IMG/VR virus record: IMGVR_UViG_3300032242_003433
Coordinates: 1 to 21,473 of that record
Length of the DNA stretch: 21,473 nucleotides
Strand: one strand, 5' to 3'
DNA from: a virus
In this document: piece after piece, positions 695 through 19,292 of the stretch
How the letters are laid out: each line of letters opens with the position of its first letter
Numbering within the stretch: the first letter of the stretch is position 1
Program-made: the position numbers and the translations under genes
The notes under the pieces: model-generated
Database searches by the model: none
The model's input: the letters and a program-made list of their open reading frames with translations, nothing else
Told to the model about the DNA's origin: nothing

Positions 695-1393
695 CTTACT
701 ACTATAGTTTTCACTACCAGATTATTGCTGTTTGTAGTCTGGACTATACCTTAACCATATCATTACTGACTTAGGTTTTCCGTGTCTAGTCTCTACACCT
801 TCTTCATTAGAGAAGCTTGGCTCGGTATTCCCAGTTTAAAGGGTTCACCGAATTTACGGAATTCTACTCAGAAGCTTTAGCTTCTGGCACTCATATTTTT
901 TGCTCGATAGTTATCAGTTAAAGCATGACAATTCGGACACAATAATTCTAGGTTTTCAATCCTATTATCAAATTTATCACCATTAACATGATGTAGCTCC
1001 AACGGTGTCTTAACTCCAAGCCATTCAGTATTATTACATTTTTCGCATTTGTGCTCTTTATATCCAAGTTTCAATAATTGATTTTTTAATACATAACTTG
1101 ATAATGGAGCACCACTACTATACGATGAATCTTTAATTAGCTTCCAAGAGATGTCTTTTTCTTTAGACCAAGTTTTACCTTTATTCCAAACTTGTCCATG
1201 AAAATGAGAAGTATCAATCTCAAAGTTTTTAATCTTAACCTTAATGTTTTGGTAATTTCCACCAGCTTCTTTAAGACCAAGTTTTTTTAACACTTGTCTT
1301 ATTGAATTTGATTCTTTTACTATCTTTTCTAAATTTTCTTTTGTGTATTTATGATTCATATTAATAAATATGAGCAGAACACAAAAAAGATTT
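695..1393 (-). ncRNA. group I intron in the anticodon of tRNA-Leu(UAA)
   Basis: A 699-nt intron. Core helices traced by eye on the minus strand: P3 TTCCGT (861-856) with ACGGAA (783-778); P4 TTCGGT (852-847) with ACCGAG (826-821); P5 CCC/GGG; P6 around GCTTC...GAAG; P7 GACTA (791-787) with TAGTC (746-742); P8 AACC (777-774) with GGTT (756-753); P9 CCAGACTAC with a later TCTGG-TAGT. Signature strings ATACCGAGCCAAGC and GTGTAGAGACTAGAC resemble the P4-P6 and P7 regions of trnL introns. The 3' end is G (omega-G). A P1 can form between exon ACUU and GAGU at 869-866, with the required U-G at the splice site. The HNH ORF therefore lies in the P1/P2 region, leaving the core intact. Confidence 0.88.
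877..1359 (-). CDS. intron-encoded HNH homing endonuclease
   Basis: A 160-residue protein starting at the ATG at 1359. Reading further upstream only translates the tRNA exon, so that longer start is rejected. The C-terminal half has a zinc-knuckle HNH domain: Cys105-x2-Cys108, His123-His124 with following NGD, an N-rich loop, then Cys141-x2-Cys144-His145. The N-terminal 60 residues hold a helix-turn-helix-like region (IRQVLKKLGLK) likely to bind DNA. It would cut intronless tRNA-Leu alleles and spread the intron. The ORF lies wholly inside the intron, ending 7 nt before the putative IGS pairing. A perfect hairpin, CATATT/AATATG with loop TATT (1372-1357), contains the start codon and may silence translation from the tRNA precursor. 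Confidence 0.9.
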   Translation of the reverse strand: MNHKYTKENLEKIVKESNSIRQVLKKLGLKEAGGNYQNIKVKIKNFEIDTSHFHGQVWNKGKTWSKEKDISWKLIKDSSYSSGAPLSSYVLKNQLLKLGYKEHKCEKCNNTEWLGVKTPLELHHVNGDKFDNRIENLELLCPNCHALTDNYRAKNMSARS

Positions 1394-1840: not shown

Positions 1841-1868
1841 AAGCCCATCTTTTTTATTAGATGGGCTT
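1841..1868 (-). terminator. rho-independent terminator (attenuator) ahead of the tRNA array
   Basis: On the minus strand AAGCCCATCT and AGATGGGCTT form a perfect 10-bp stem with an 8-nt loop, followed by a T-rich tract TTTTTTATTTAT (counting the last stem bases). It lies between the promoter at 2030-2061 and tRNA-Cys, so it would stop transcription before the tRNAs unless bypassed. Confidence 0.85.
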
Positions 1869-1891
1869 ACGTTTCAGCTTAGATACCTTTA

Positions 1892-1966
1892 TCAACTGAC
1901 ATAGCCCATCCTATTCACTAGGAGCAAACATAACACAAGGACCAATTGTAAAGATAGAGTTTTCAT
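1892..1966 (-). CDS. 24-residue Leu/Val-rich leader peptide
   Basis: ATG at 1966 and TGA at 1894-1892 give 24 codons: 8 Leu, 4 Val and 1 Cys in all, with 12 of these 13 packed into residues 4-17. Leu codons are CTA, TTA, TTG, CTT, TTA, TTG, CTC, CTA; Val codons GTC, GTG, GTG, GTC; Cys TGT. These are the same three amino acids as the identified tRNAs of the array (four Leu, two Val, one Cys). It lies about 64 nt below a strong promoter and directly before the terminator. The peptide is hydrophobic and could also be a small membrane peptide, but position and overlap with the antiterminator favour a regulatory leader. No Shine-Dalgarno is present, as usual in Bacteroidota. Confidence 0.65.
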   Translation of the reverse strand: MKTLSLQLVLVLCLLLVNRMGYVS

Positions 1967-2029
1967 TTTTTTTTATTTTGTGGGTTACCCCGTTTTTAAT
2001 TAAATATCTCGTTGTTTATAAATATACTG

Positions 2030-2101: not shown

Positions 2102-2839
2102 ATGCTCATACTTGAAGTTTATAAATCGCTAATAACAGAAGCTCATATTGATTCATGTGTAAAAGACTTTGGATACCAACTATTTGGTCATGAATTAGGT
2201 GGTGATGAAAAGAATACACCTATAGAAAATGCTTATGTTAAAAGCATCGAAGACTTCAGTAAAACCATGTACGGTAAAAATATAAACCCTAAGTTTGTTT
2301 CTGCTATGGAAAAATTGAAGGGTTGTATGAAAGAATACCCAGAAGTTCTTATCCCAGAAAAAACAAAGGTTTATAGAGGATTAACCATACCTGTAAAATA
2401 CTTCATAGATAATAAACAACCTATAAGTCTAAATAAGACATTCCCTTTTACCTATACACCAATGACCAAGATTGAGAGTTGGTCCCCAGACTATGAAGCC
2501 GCTTCTTTGTTTGGAAAACACGATGAATTTAATGAATTGGCCAAGAGTATTGATGTCAAGAATTATGCTACACCAGAACAAAGAAAAGAACTATTAAATC
2601 GTATCATATCTGAAGGTATCAAGGTTGCTATTGTTATAGAATATGAAACAAACCCTCAAGAATTTATGTTTAAGTCAAAATACTTTAGACTAATCTCCAA
2701 TGTTTATTATGAAGATGAAATTCTTAGGATAAGCGATAAAACCATTAAGGTTATTGCTAAGTTTAATGATTCACCAGATATATTTAGCTTTAAGGGTATG
2801 CAACTTTTGAAATTGATAAACCAAGCAATTCTTGACTAA
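2102..2839 (+). CDS. mono-ADP-ribosyltransferase (R-S-E type)
   Basis: A 245-residue protein. The ATG at 2102 is preferred over a TTG at 2054, which would lie in promoter sequence of the opposite strand. It shows the signature of arginine-type ADP-ribosyltransferases in order: Arg92 in KVYRGL, an STS-like motif Ser126-Trp-Ser128 in IESWSPDYEAASLF, and the ExE motif Glu204-Asp-Glu206 in YYEDEILR. Such enzymes move ADP-ribose from NAD to target proteins; the phage T4 enzymes Alt, ModA and ModB modify host RNA polymerase and translation proteins. The N-terminal 85 residues have no recognised domain. Upstream is an ATATTTATAG string (2082-2091) also seen before other plus-strand genes. It shares an island with the nuclease gene that follows. 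Confidence 0.8.
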   Translation: MLILEVYKSLITEAHIDSCVKDFGYQLFGHELGGDEKNTPIENAYVKSIEDFSKTMYGKNINPKFVSAMEKLKGCMKEYPEVLIPEKTKVYRGLTIPVKYFIDNKQPISLNKTFPFTYTPMTKIESWSPDYEAASLFGKHDEFNELAKSIDVKNYATPEQRKELLNRIISEGIKVAIVIEYETNPQEFMFKSKYFRLISNVYYEDEILRISDKTIKVIAKFNDSPDIFSFKGMQLLKLINQAILD

Positions 2840-9700: not shown

Positions 9701-10999
9701 TTAGTCTCCTATTTCTATCAAATGAGTAATTGTACACTGAGCCGAATTATAAACGATATACTCGTTATTTCTTAGGTCAGCACCTCCTTTTGCGAATACG
9801 CTATCGTATCCGTCTTTTTTAAGAACCTTTTCAGATAAGCTATAACAGCTTGAATCATGATGGAGGATTTCTTTTTGTTTTCCAAGATGAACTTCAAACA
9901 AAGCCAAGTATGCTTTGTTGTCACCGCCACGTGCCCAATAAGAACCCCTAAGCGATGTATAACCAATAGACTTCTGCGCCTTATCAGCGAAGTAGATACC
10001 ATCACCAAACATACTACCTGTATGTACGGCTCCAGATGGACGTATGAGCAAACCAGTCTGCAAGATGTTAAACCAGTTCTCGTTTCGAGAACCATGCCAA
10101 TACATACGTTTCTTTTTGGTTTCTACCTTATCCATATGAGCATCATACCTTTTTTGTGTCTTATGGTTTTTAACCTTAAACACCTTCTTGCATTGTTTAG
10201 AATTAGGACCCAGAAGCTTAGTTATCAAAGCTAGGGTATCCTTGTCGTTTTCTATCTCAATACTTATACCCATTTCATCAAGTATGGTGATGCTAGTTTT
10301 GGTACCGCTGGCCTTATCTTCAGAAGCCTTTTTAAGGGCTTCTTTTTGTTGCTTAATGAGTTGTACTTGACCAGACATGGTATCGAGCATAGACTGTTCA
10401 TTATTAATAAACCTCTGAGCAGTTAACAGGTCATCTTTGGTATCTATTTGTGATAATAGATAATTCTTAACATTATCCATCTTACGAGGAATGATGGTAT
10501 ATAGCTTTAATAGGAGGTCATTGACCTCTTTTATATCAACGCTAACCCTTATCATTCCGCTTATCTTATCAATGATTTCCTGTGCGGCGTTTACTTGTTG
10601 TTCAGAAACCGCATCTTGAGAAACCTTGTAGTTTTGTTTGATGGTTTTGTTAGCATATGACATCAAATCTTCCATTAGCTTGCGAACAAGCATATCGGTA
10701 ATCAAAGACACCCTATCATCGGTTGAAACGGCTTGGTCAACTACTGGTTCTGCTAAGAGTTCGGTAACATCCGTATAGCCCTTGCTCTTTCCAGTTTTTT
10801 GGTTATAAACACTCTGCCACTTTGAACTTGGCTTGTATTCGGTAACCAGTGACTTACCAACACGACCATACTCACATTTGATGCGACCATCGGATAGTTC
10901 TTCCATGATATAGACCTTGTTGCTATTGTCGGTCTTTCCGTTATCAACGGAAACATGAATAAGCTTTGCATATCTGAGTCCGTTATCTTTGATTATCAT
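9701..10999 (-). CDS. WGR-domain poly(ADP-ribose) polymerase (PARP)
   Basis: A 432-residue protein with the order of DNA-damage PARPs. Residues 8-82 are a WGR-type domain (GRIKCEYGRVGKS, Tyr replacing Trp). Residues about 95-225 are a helical regulatory-like region. Residues 299-431 are the ART catalytic domain with the H-Y-E triad: His302 in YWHGSR, Tyr336 in FGDGIYFADKAQKSIGY and Glu413 in NNEYIVYNSAQC. All three are present, so it should be active and able to extend chains. It would use NAD to modify proteins or nucleic acids, probably on binding DNA ends. It lies in a unit with a thioesterase-like and a PTH2-like gene, 9 nt below the former. Confidence 0.92.
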   Translation of the reverse strand: MIIKDNGLRYAKLIHVSVDNGKTDNSNKVYIMEELSDGRIKCEYGRVGKSLVTEYKPSSKWQSVYNQKTGKSKGYTDVTELLAEPVVDQAVSTDDRVSLITDMLVRKLMEDLMSYANKTIKQNYKVSQDAVSEQQVNAAQEIIDKISGMIRVSVDIKEVNDLLLKLYTIIPRKMDNVKNYLLSQIDTKDDLLTAQRFINNEQSMLDTMSGQVQLIKQQKEALKKASEDKASGTKTSITILDEMGISIEIENDKDTLALITKLLGPNSKQCKKVFKVKNHKTQKRYDAHMDKVETKKKRMYWHGSRNENWFNILQTGLLIRPSGAVHTGSMFGDGIYFADKAQKSIGYTSLRGSYWARGGDNKAYLALFEVHLGKQKEILHHDSSCYSLSEKVLKKDGYDSVFAKGGADLRNNEYIVYNSAQCTITHLIEIGD

Positions 11000-11699: not shown

Positions 11700-11927
11700 T
11701 TAAATGTGCTTATTAAATGCATTTAAAACATCTTCCCAGAGTTTTTTATCTTCATATTGGTATAATACCGAGTGACCTAGGCACCAAACTTCAATCGAAT
11801 AAAGCTTGGTGTAGTCTTCTATCCAACTATGAATCTTTATATTTTTATCTCTAGGTATACGTATATGTAAGGTATCATCCACATATATACGTATATTTTC
11901 AGAATCGCTTTTTGCTGTTACTATCAT
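11700..11927 (-). CDS. 75-residue protein of unknown function
   Basis: No family is recognised. Beta-rich by composition (IRIYVDDTLHIRIPRDKNI), with no signal peptide or membrane segment. Its start shares a base with the stop of the Rnl2-type ligase gene, so it is probably the last gene of that operon. Confidence 0.65.
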   Translation of the reverse strand: MIVTAKSDSENIRIYVDDTLHIRIPRDKNIKIHSWIEDYTKLYSIEVWCLGHSVLYQYEDKKLWEDVLNAFNKHI

Positions 11928-12967
11928 TATACGCTAAGCTTAAAAAACATTTCCCTTACCTTCGCTGAGATATACTTACCGACATCCTTTGGTTCAAGGT
12001 TATTCTTAACCATCGTATCTGATTCTTCTTTGATGATATCATCAACAATCCATTTCATGAGCGCACCCATCTTTTTTACATCTATGGGTTCTCCGTTAAG
12101 AAATGTTTTTTCAAGCCCTTGATTGAAACGACTTTCGGTTACAGCGTATTCAACAAATTCATTTATTGAATTCAGCTTTTCAACATCTACCGCTGCAAGT
12201 GTTTTAACCTTGCTGGCAGAATGCTTTTCGCCCTTCACCTTAAACCTGTGAACAACACCCTTATATTCACAAGACCATACGATACCTTCCCCGATTCCAG
12301 AGAAACCAAAGGCCTTAGCTACTGGACACTCTTCTTCAACTGCGATTGTTAGTTCGGACAATTTGTTTTGAACCAATTGAGGCATGTTAAAATCGATATC
12401 CATTGAGTATGTTGGATAGTCTTCTATGTTGTAGATACGAGACTCTGGTGCTCTCAAATCGCTGAAGTCAACCCAGTATGCTGGACGTGGCTTGTCTTCA
12501 CCTTCAATGGCAAACGGGGATATCTTTACGCCAAAGATAAAGAAAGACTTCGGAAGGTTAGTAATCGCAACACCCTTTTGGATATTGCCACCACACCATT
12601 CACCGTAGATAGAAATGGTATTATCTTCTAGGTTCAAATTAAGCCTTTCAGCAACCTTTAGCATGAAGCTAATGAACGTGTCTTTATTGTTTTCAACAAA
12701 AAATGCAAATCCAGCGTTTTCTTGTTCAGGTGTAATGATATTCTCCCTAGATTGTGCCCATAGACCACTTAGTTTGTTATAACAAACACCAGCATTTGTA
12801 CCGTGAAGCTTTACCGTACCCTTGAATGTCAGTACTGGCTTTGGTAAGCTAGCATCGTAGATTGGTTCTTTGTTTTCATCTAGGCCTACAAAGTTAAATT
12901 GTCTATTGATATTAGCAATTACATTTCTGAATTGCTCTATGCTTGGGAAACTGATGTGTTTTTTCAT
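11927..12967 (-). CDS. RNA ligase, T4 Rnl2 family
   Basis: A 346-residue protein with the nucleotidyltransferase motifs of Rnl2 ligases. Motif I is KLHGTN, with Lys53 as the AMP-accepting lysine and the Rnl2-type His after it. The motif III area is IYGEWCGGNIQKG (120-132), motif IV is GEGIVW (226-231) and motif V is RFKVKG (Lys244, Lys246). About 90 residues of C-terminal domain follow. It seals 3'-OH/5'-phosphate breaks in RNA, typically nicks in duplex or structured RNA, using ATP. The start overlaps the upstream beta-barrel gene (ATGA). It is one of two RNA ligases in the window and may act with the kinase-CPDase at the right edge to mend cut tRNA. Confidence 0.93.
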   Translation of the reverse strand: MKKHISFPSIEQFRNVIANINRQFNFVGLDENKEPIYDASLPKPVLTFKGTVKLHGTNAGVCYNKLSGLWAQSRENIITPEQENAGFAFFVENNKDTFISFMLKVAERLNLNLEDNTISIYGEWCGGNIQKGVAITNLPKSFFIFGVKISPFAIEGEDKPRPAYWVDFSDLRAPESRIYNIEDYPTYSMDIDFNMPQLVQNKLSELTIAVEEECPVAKAFGFSGIGEGIVWSCEYKGVVHRFKVKGEKHSASKVKTLAAVDVEKLNSINEFVEYAVTESRFNQGLEKTFLNGEPIDVKKMGALMKWIVDDIIKEESDTMVKNNLEPKDVGKYISAKVREMFFKLSV

Positions 12968-16425: not shown

Positions 16426-16457
16426 TAAAGGTATGAATTTATTTTGTTATTACCAAA
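16426..16457 (-). promoter_or_regulatory. promoter of the DNA ligase gene
   Basis: The -7 box TACCTTTA (16433-16426, last base off consensus) and -33 box TTTG (16457-16454) are 20 nt apart. It lies partly within the 3' end of the HD gene. The start codon is 17 nt below. Confidence 0.75.
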
Positions 16458-17053
16458 TTTAAAGCAGTATATAATTGAATTTGGTTTGTCATGATGAACT
16501 TAGCATTTTCGTAAGCACCCTCTTGAAAAGGAAAGTTTCTTTTTGCTTTCTTCAACATAGGTATCGTGAAATCTAGCGTCTCTTGAATGTAAGTTACTCT
16601 TTTTTCTGGCTTAAATCCGTTCAACATGGTCATAAGGTTATGAACCCTATCAAAGCACTTGCAAATACTAGCAATTTCGCATTCACTAATTGCTTCGTAG
16701 TATTGTTCGTTTGGTATCTTAACCCCTTGATACTCTTTGGTCATAAGCTTAACAGCCTTTGCCGAAGTAATACCGAAACGTCTTTCTATTTCCTCGTAAG
16801 AAATACCCTTGTCTTCACATATGTCATGTAAGAGAACTACGATGAAGACCTCTTCTTTTAAATTGAAATGATTTACTAGGGTCCTTGCAAGACTAGCTTG
16901 AGATACTTGATGTGAAAACTCATGCTCACCATCTTTGCGTTTTCCGTTATGAAACTTTTCAGCAAAAGCCATGGCTTCTACTGCCTTGTGGTAGCCTTTA
17001 CCTAATAACCAATAGCGTAAAGCAATCTTTTGTTTTTCGTAATTTTCTTTCAT
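16439..17053 (-). CDS. SpoT/MESH1-like HD hydrolase
   Basis: A 204-residue protein resembling the hydrolase domain of RelA/SpoT proteins. RKDGEHEFSHQ gives metal ligand His48, VVLLHDICED gives His76-Asp77 with Glu80-Asp81, and KCFDRVHNLMTML gives Asp135 with the family's D-x3-N. A long helix with KRVTYIQET follows. Family members remove the 3' pyrophosphate of (p)ppGpp, and small stand-alone versions exist. No synthetase domain is present. A phage may use it to damp the host stringent response or to clear a nucleotide signal. A -7 box lies 4 nt before the ATG, predicting a leaderless mRNA. Confidence 0.8.
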   Translation of the reverse strand: MKENYEKQKIALRYWLLGKGYHKAVEAMAFAEKFHNGKRKDGEHEFSHQVSQASLARTLVNHFNLKEEVFIVVLLHDICEDKGISYEEIERRFGITSAKAVKLMTKEYQGVKIPNEQYYEAISECEIASICKCFDRVHNLMTMLNGFKPEKRVTYIQETLDFTIPMLKKAKRNFPFQEGAYENAKFIMTNQIQLYTALNLVITK

Positions 17054-18102: not shown

Positions 18103-18124
18103 CCTATAAGGATTATCTTATAGG
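18103..18124 (-). terminator. hairpin at the end of the Rnl1-type gene
   Basis: CCTATAAG and CTTATAGG form a perfect 8-bp stem with a 6-nt loop, overlapping the stop codon of the RNA ligase gene. On the minus strand ATTTCTTGTTTATAT follows, T-rich but broken. It is a weak terminator or a 3'-end stabiliser. Confidence 0.5.
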
Positions 18125-19242
18125 AGCTTGTATAACGCTTTATCGTCATAATTAAAGATGAAGTCTTCTACACTAGAAACCTTTCCATCAGCTAAGCCGA
18201 AGTATAAGCCAGTAAAGGTCTTTAGTTCATGCTTACCGCATACTTCAAACACCGCTTGAGCGAATTTTTTCTTTTCTTTTGGTGTGATGTTTTTTGGCAA
18301 GTTGGTTTTTAATTCATCCCAAACACCATTTAGCTTAGCCACCAACGCATCATAGTTAGCCTTCAACTTATATAATTCATCCTTACGGTCTGGGAACGTA
18401 GCACCGAACTCTTCTATTTCATTGGTCTTTACTATCGTTATTATATTATGTTCAGCTGTCTTACCCTTCAAGTGATGAACCGCCACATATGCTGGGTTCT
18501 TTATCTTAACACGGTTGAAGTTAGCGTCCACCACAACATAGCCCTCATCATGCCATACCATACCTTCGAAGGTCTTCAATAATGCGCCGATATTCTTTGC
18601 ATTCAAATCGTATGACTTAACACGTGGTACACCTAAGTCTTCAGCAATAGAAGTCAGTTCTTCGAATGAGACTTCTTGTAGGGTCTCAAGATTACGAACC
18701 GTCAACAAAGACGCTGATGACTCGCCATGTGGCTTTACAACTATGTTGTATGGTGTTGTTAATTCAAACACATATGTAAAGCCCTTGTTAAGCTTAGATG
18801 TATCTAGCTTGTACTTATCGGAAACAACATTCCAAAACAATTGGTTGAAGGTTGTACCCATCTTGTTGTTTACTTCACCTTCACCTTCTGCGGTACCAGT
18901 TGTTCCAGCATACCATGTATTTGCAACCCAGTCATAGTATACTTGTATACATGAGCCATCAAGCTTTTCAAGTACGTGAGCTGTGTTCCAGTCTATCTTA
19001 TGAGCGTTACCTTCCTCTGAATTAAAGAACTTGGTAAAAGCCAAAGACATAAGTTTCCAAGTATCTTTTTCAAGGATGATACCACGGCATTCTTGAACCT
19101 CTGGCTTAGCCATCATAGATGGACCACAGAGTTGGTCGTACTTCAACAATATCTTATGGTTATAAACCCTTATCTTAAGGTTGAACTCTTGTATTGCTTT
19201 AGCTAGACCATTTGCCTTTAAGTATTTTTGTATTGCTAACAT
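18118..19242 (-). CDS. RNA ligase, T4 Rnl1 family
   Basis: A 374-residue protein, close to T4 Rnl1 in length. ATG 19242 is preferred to a TTG at 19263 that lies in the -7 box. Motifs: ECRGIILE and KFFNSEE upstream of the site, motif I EKLDGS (Lys93), motif III TYVFEL (Glu160), motif IV EGYVVV (233-238), motif V VKIKNPAYV (Lys246, Lys248), then a helical C-terminal domain (about 265-374). Rnl1 rejoins single-stranded RNA ends and in T4 repairs tRNA-Lys cut in its anticodon loop by host PrrC. Here it may partner with the kinase-CPDase at 20664. It has its own promoter. Confidence 0.93.
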   Translation of the reverse strand: MLAIQKYLKANGLAKAIQEFNLKIRVYNHKILLKYDQLCGPSMMAKPEVQECRGIILEKDTWKLMSLAFTKFFNSEEGNAHKIDWNTAHVLEKLDGSCIQVYYDWVANTWYAGTTGTAEGEGEVNNKMGTTFNQLFWNVVSDKYKLDTSKLNKGFTYVFELTTPYNIVVKPHGESSASLLTVRNLETLQEVSFEELTSIAEDLGVPRVKSYDLNAKNIGALLKTFEGMVWHDEGYVVVDANFNRVKIKNPAYVAVHHLKGKTAEHNIITIVKTNEIEEFGATFPDRKDELYKLKANYDALVAKLNGVWDELKTNLPKNITPKEKKKFAQAVFEVCGKHELKTFTGLYFGLADGKVSSVEDFIFNYDDKALYKLL

Positions 19243-19260
19243 GTCTTTTGTTTTAGACAA

Positions 19261-19292
19261 CAAAGGTAAGAAAATTTTTTTGAACTTGCAAG
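19261..19292 (-). promoter_or_regulatory. promoter of the Rnl1-type ligase gene
   Basis: The -7 box TACCTTTG (19268-19261) and -33 box CTTG (19292-19289) are 20 nt apart. The start codon is 18 nt below. Confidence 0.82.

Follow-up and report, generated by a model that had tools for sequence, protein, structure and literature searches.

The window analysed here, which is the complete IMG/VR virus record IMGVR_UViG_3300032242_003433 of 21,473 bases and itself a fragment, contains an array of tRNA genes on the minus strand that runs leftward from position 1826. The first gene of the block is a tRNA-Cys(GCA) (1755–1826), followed by a tRNA-Val(UAC) (1675–1748), an atypical tRNA-like gene of 99 nt (1575–1673), a second tRNA-Val(UAC) (1499–1570), a tRNA-Leu(UAA) (643–1428), two tRNA-Leu(CAA) genes (417–501 and 206–289) and, at the record end, a tRNA-Leu(UAG) (1–82). 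The Cys and Val genes and those for Leu(CAA) and Leu(UAG) were identified both by ARAGORN and by the Rfam scan. The gene between the two Val tRNAs is of uncertain identity; it scores 41.7 bits with RF00005, its anticodon region is odd, and ARAGORN reads it as Phe-GAA only if a 5-nt intron is allowed. The tRNA-Leu(UAA) is split by a 699-nt group I-like intron, which reaches 43.7 bits with the Intron_gpI model, slightly below the gathering score, and which contains an HNH endonuclease ORF (877–1389, minus strand); the tRNA-Leu(UAA) of cyanobacteria and plastids carries a group I intron too. ARAGORN reports three Leu, two Val and one Cys tRNA and in its intron mode supplies the fourth Leu gene, and for this reason the count of four Leu, two Val and one Cys tRNA in the original prediction is right. 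The near-identical contig L011 extends the array by genes for Leu, Phe, Phe, Glu, Asp, Asp and Met. In the diverged relative L008, a tRNA-like sequence with a Cys-type anticodon loop (2192–2720, minus strand) is apparently cut by an insert with an HNH-like endonuclease ORF.

The array is preceded on the same strand by a promoter of the form TTGACA...TACCTTTG (2030–2060), a motif that is also found 5' of the leaders in relatives of the same clade and 5' of two protein genes within the window. It is of the TAnnTTTG type characteristic of Bacteroidota, and on the basis of this promoter type the hosts of these phages are probably Bacteroidota. Between promoter and array, as had been proposed, lies a leader ORF of 24 codons (1892–1966), MKTLSLQLVLVLCLLLVNRMGYVS, with 8 Leu, 4 Val and 1 Cys codons; the Leu codons are CTA, TTA, TTG, CTT, TTA, TTG, CTC and CTA, so that the composition and the sampling of five of the six Leu codon types agree with what had been stated. 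The interval originally assigned to the leader, 1860–1966, includes this ORF and also extends into a terminator. This intrinsic terminator, AAGCCCATCT-loop-AGATGGGCTT-TTTTATTT (1841–1868), is seen in the sequence and in aligned relatives. The putative sensing codons 4–17 (1916–1957) are mostly Leu, Val and Cys codons, and the switch predicted by folding falls just 3' of them. From the end of codon 19 to codon 22 the ORF contains GATGGGCT (1903–1910), a copy of the terminator 3' arm; the leader is therefore able to pair with the terminator 5' arm (1859–1868), which would double as the 3' arm of an antiterminator, as indicated by duplex prediction and aligned relatives. Terminator and antiterminator were absent from the original prediction and make its mechanism concrete. 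Leader ORF, terminator and arm copy together show the anatomy of a ribosome-mediated attenuator.

Relatives were retrieved with a pattern of the three arms (L011 and L008) and with a 17-mer from the leader (L018). The Leu/Val/Cys content is retained in their leaders MKNLSLNLVLVLCLLVVDVMGYAF and MKNLSLQIVLVLCLLVADWVGYAC, which again lie 5' of Cys, Val and Leu tRNAs. In both L011 and L018, the Phe, Glu and Asp genes into which the array continues have a separate promoter, leader and terminator of their own, and this second leader, MRTFANIFDFAFEFAAEADKSLG, is rich in Phe, Asp, Glu and Ala. The 5'UTRs of leaders 1 and 2 have in common a small hairpin, ACGGGGTAACCCAC or a close variant (L011 10660–10673, L018 9543–9556, window 1980–1993). 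A scan with the second leader reached the 136-kb contig G003. Units made up of a promoter, a small ORF and a terminator were sought there automatically and without selection on composition, and four emerged, each with a leader matching its own tRNA block. Leader 1 (MKTSLTNLVLVLCLLVADWVGFAC) precedes Cys, Val and three Leu tRNAs, leader 2 (MRTFANIFDFAFEFAAEADKSLGGQLLSKK) Phe, Glu, Asp and Ala, leader 3 (MKTTTTYTGKQYPQGKQGRVGLGVCMSLHKSWS) Pro, Gln, Tyr, Thr, two Gly and three Lys, and leader 4 (MRNINIHINSISMWRRNSNPFESAMSVSFLCDF) Trp, His, Ile, Asn and Arg. As the fourth block in relatives contains Ser and Met in addition, each of the 20 amino acids is represented once across the four classes. 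The tRNA block usually begins no more than tens of bases 3' of its unit, an arrangement that recurs block after block, and diverged forms of all four leaders are present in a further contig, G013. The claim that the tRNAs are exclusively Leu, Val and Cys thus holds for the seven identified genes and fails for the tRNA region as a whole, since several leader-controlled blocks exist.

More distant phages divide the amino acids in other ways. A PARP-like protein is common to the window's phage and to LR756500, a 462-kb uncultured phage (44% identity), and when used as bait it led to 70 further loci, many of which carry diverged leaders 1 and 2 5' of the same tRNAs; contigs with a PARP identity of 38–45% partition the amino acids differently. 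The 482-kb G017 has seven leaders: LSLSLSLSLSLS is followed by Leu/Ser tRNAs, NNNNQQQYQQNNY by Asn/Gln/Tyr, TRIIRIRRR by Ile/Arg, HIHKHQIWH by Trp/His, a leader with P, F and V by Pro/Phe/Val, ADCADE by Asp/Cys/Glu/Ala, and a Thr/Lys/Gly-rich leader by Met/Thr/Lys/Gly tRNAs. These blocks cover the 20 amino acids, the last with one extra Asn. Seven leaders are likewise found in G016 (374 kb), where the partition is nearly that of G017 and the leader sequences are different; the leaders of both contigs have a common GATATATA..ATATAA in place of the hairpin ACGGGGTAACCCAC. The groupings are different again for the three leaders of LR756500, among them MKTLSTYPLGQAQTLGTPPITG, followed by Ala, Leu, Pro, Tyr, Gln, Gly and Thr tRNAs. 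The PARP-domain protein itself (window 9701–10999, minus strand) is conserved across these huge phages and also occurs in Cellulophaga, Klebsiella, Stenotrophomonas and Xanthomonas phages; in the first 45 kb of Cellulophaga phage phi17:2, which has a related PARP, no tRNAs were found. Among the collected loci, five (L166, L174, L087, L090 and L056) contain tRNAs with a CUA anticodon, assigned to Pyl by ARAGORN, which are possible amber suppressors, and phage-encoded tmRNA genes lie in L045 (8347–8704) and L050 (11797–12154).

The match between leaders and blocks was evaluated by counting the leader residues that are in-block and shuffling the amino-acid labels of the blocks. For the window leader alone P is 0.009. 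In G003, 60 of 116 residues are in-block against 26.8 expected, with a coverage of 18/18, and none of 200,000 permutations was as good; the values are 39/66 for LR756500 (P = 5e-6), where each block offered two or three candidate ORFs from which the leader was picked, a choice whose bias is too slight to alter the conclusion, and 69/166 for G016 and 77/188 for G017, neither equalled in 100,000 permutations. Label permutation hence puts P at or below about 1e-5 for every one of these four phages. As a control, 288–694 other small ORFs per phage were taken from the same regions. None of these equals 14 of the 21 leaders, while the remaining seven, all from G016 and G017 and of the Trp/His, Ile/Arg, Pro/Phe/Val and Asp/Cys/Glu/Ala types, are each equalled in score by 2–12 control ORFs. 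In most leaders examined, wobble rules allow nearly every in-block codon to be read by a tRNA that the block itself encodes. The expectation that, in related phages, the leaders vary in composition along with the tRNA set is borne out by all four blocks of one phage and by the other partitions of the distant ones.

The window antiterminator duplex has a predicted energy of -18.3 kcal/mol compared with -9.3 kcal/mol for shuffled sequences (p=0.001). An antiterminator is predicted in nearly all units, starting from about codon 15–25, past the sensing codons, and in most units the ORF end pairs better with the terminator 5' arm than shuffled sequences do, with weak p values of 0.15–0.35 in two class-2 units and 0.12 in the LR756500 N unit. 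For leader class 4 the antiterminator helix is paired in 96% of cells, two of its pairs show compensatory changes, and the helix is lost when the partner is slid along the alignment. In a folding model that represents the ribosome as a mask at successive ORF positions, a ribosome early in the ORF leaves the terminator 5' arm sequestered (P about 0.5–0.96), whereas past the sensing codons sequestration is generally below about 0.4 and rises again near the stop codon in a few units. At equilibrium the terminator beats the antiterminator in most units, so that the switch would have to be kinetic. The pN/pS ratios are 0.57 for class 1, 0.43 for class 2, and 0.22 for class 4, in which the set includes nested starts of the same ORFs; these values support a coding constraint on the leaders and thereby favour their translation.

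The units hence combine a short leader ORF whose codons correspond to the regulated tRNAs, an intrinsic terminator between leader and first gene, a mutually exclusive antiterminator that uses the end of the leader ORF and is weak in a few units, and, in silico, a structure that switches with ribosome position. We conclude, with a probability of roughly 0.92, that the ORF encodes the leader peptide through which a ribosome-mediated transcription attenuator controls the following tRNA block; the charging-dependent control of tRNAs proposed at the outset is supported by the composition match in relatives and by the terminator/antiterminator switch in the RNA. Transcription would begin at the TACCTTTG promoter, and a ribosome would trail the RNA polymerase through the leader. 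With ample charged Leu, Val and Cys tRNAs, the ribosome would reach the ORF end and cover codons 19–22, the terminator hairpin would fold and the tRNA genes would stay untranscribed. If any of the Leu, Val or Cys tRNAs became scarce, the ribosome would stall on the sensing codons, GATGGGCT would pair with the terminator 5' arm and the polymerase would enter the tRNA genes. The new tRNAs would relieve the stall, which would amount to a negative-feedback homeostat supplying charged tRNA on demand, and the sister leaders would work in the same way for other tRNA groups. Both the translation of the leader and the regulatory sign of this control are what we infer from these features.

Other readings of the locus account for parts of these data. 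The presence of a terminator/antiterminator switch 5' of tRNA genes would also fit an untranslated, T-box-like RNA leader that binds uncharged tRNA directly. This reading was rejected, as cmscan with Rfam at the gathering score detected no T-box and no other curated leader family in the window; the match in composition lies in the translated frame and pN/pS is below 1, which makes such a leader very improbable. Taken by itself, leader 1 resembles a signal peptide and its P is only 0.009, so that one could regard the ORF as an ordinary hydrophobic small membrane or signal-like peptide with incidental Leu/Val content. The sister leaders MKTTTTYTGKQYPQGKQ, MRNINIHINSISMWRRNS and NNNNQQQYQQNNY contradict this, being hydrophilic and each following its own block, and the antiterminator is located within the ORF; this proposal was rejected and is the most improbable of those considered. 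Hardly more credible, and a little less remote than the T-box-like leader, is that the hairpin merely terminates a short upstream transcript while the tRNAs are expressed from other promoters. Intrinsic terminators are common and many promoter-like matches arise by chance; against this stands an arrangement that is repeated before successive blocks, usually no more than tens of bases from the first tRNA, with an antiterminator copy in the ORF, and on these grounds it was rejected.

A more substantial alternative retains the attenuator and concerns its natural trigger, which might be host amino-acid starvation or the codon demand of the phage instead of tRNA loss or cleavage. A leader of this kind reports charged tRNA regardless of the cause, and classical attenuators, for which ribosome-mediated attenuation has been modelled, sense amino-acid supply (PMC1183508). 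The output here is tRNA and not amino acids, which would be useful only where tRNA itself is limiting; the blocks cover all 20 amino acids, beyond what codon compensation needs; and the phage encodes two RNA ligases, at 11927–12967 (PF09414) and 18118–19263 (T4 Rnl1-type, PF09511), both on the minus strand. We regard a trigger of starvation or codon demand as possible, with the odds against it. With tRNA as the output, a loss of tRNA, for example to defence nucleases, would make the most sense as trigger, and we infer that the attenuator would naturally respond to the loss of host tRNAs in infection, whether through decay or through such nucleases. The ligases are plausible tRNA repair enzymes, in keeping with a phage that meets tRNA damage. 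An HD_4 domain protein (window 16439–17053, minus strand) is possibly a ppGpp hydrolase; if so, it would act on the same charged-tRNA signal.

The system has exceptions and is not general to tRNA-rich phages, given that the records LR756511, G019, G020 and L160 are rich in tRNAs and showed no matching leader. No tRNA was found within about 8–9 kb downstream of leader 4 in G010 and of leader 3 in G013, and some blocks contain off-set tRNAs, namely Phe in block 1 of G001, Ser in block 2 of G013, and Pro, Thr or Gln in some fourth blocks. The FDFAFEF pattern gave 26 matches in bacterial genomes, none with a leader peptide context and none 5' of a tRNA block, and is thus usable as a negative control. 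Searches with GTCCTTGTGTTATGTTT and with a degenerate leader-1 pattern returned chance matches without tRNAs, a near-DNA search of phage records gave a single weak match, and leader peptides 2 and 4 had no useful tblastn match in phage records.

The phage leaders resemble those of the trp, his, leu and ilv operons in having a short ORF rich in regulatory codons, an intrinsic terminator, a mutually exclusive antiterminator overlapping the ORF end and a predicted dependence on ribosome position. They differ from amino-acid biosynthesis leaders such as those of the leu and his operons in that the regulated genes are tRNAs and not genes for making amino acids, in that several amino acids are sensed per leader, and in that each leader of a given phage has a share of the amino acids that overlaps little with those of the others. 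T-box riboswitches also sense tRNA charging by a terminator/antiterminator switch, but bind uncharged tRNA without a leader peptide. Huge phages encode up to 67 tRNAs (Al-Shayeb et al., 2020; PMC7162821), and LR756500.1, which at 462 kb carries the leader system, is of the same size class; the text of that study contains neither "leader" nor "attenuat". Phage tRNAs are reported to evade tRNA-cleaving defence systems (PMC10264068; PMC11555353), and the tRNAs described here could similarly replace tRNAs lost to host defences; neither report mentions a leader peptide or an attenuator. The mechanism is of a known kind, and tRNA genes as its regulated output appear new: in agreement with the original prediction, which knew of no such phage tRNA operon, no precedent for a leader-attenuated tRNA operon, phage or otherwise, was found in the open-access literature searched.

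We consider it somewhat better than an even chance that these units form a viral system of tRNA surveillance and replacement, in which a few multi-amino-acid attenuated operons let any host tRNA loss induce just the block that replaces it. One attenuator would read a whole amino-acid group, and evolution can change the membership of this group, the leader changing with it. If the attenuators read the charging of just the tRNAs they encode, these phages would treat tRNA supply as a sensed and regulated quantity, in line with host tRNA depletion. This would make the tRNA counter-defence hypothesis directly testable, each leader being a ready reporter for its own tRNA group.
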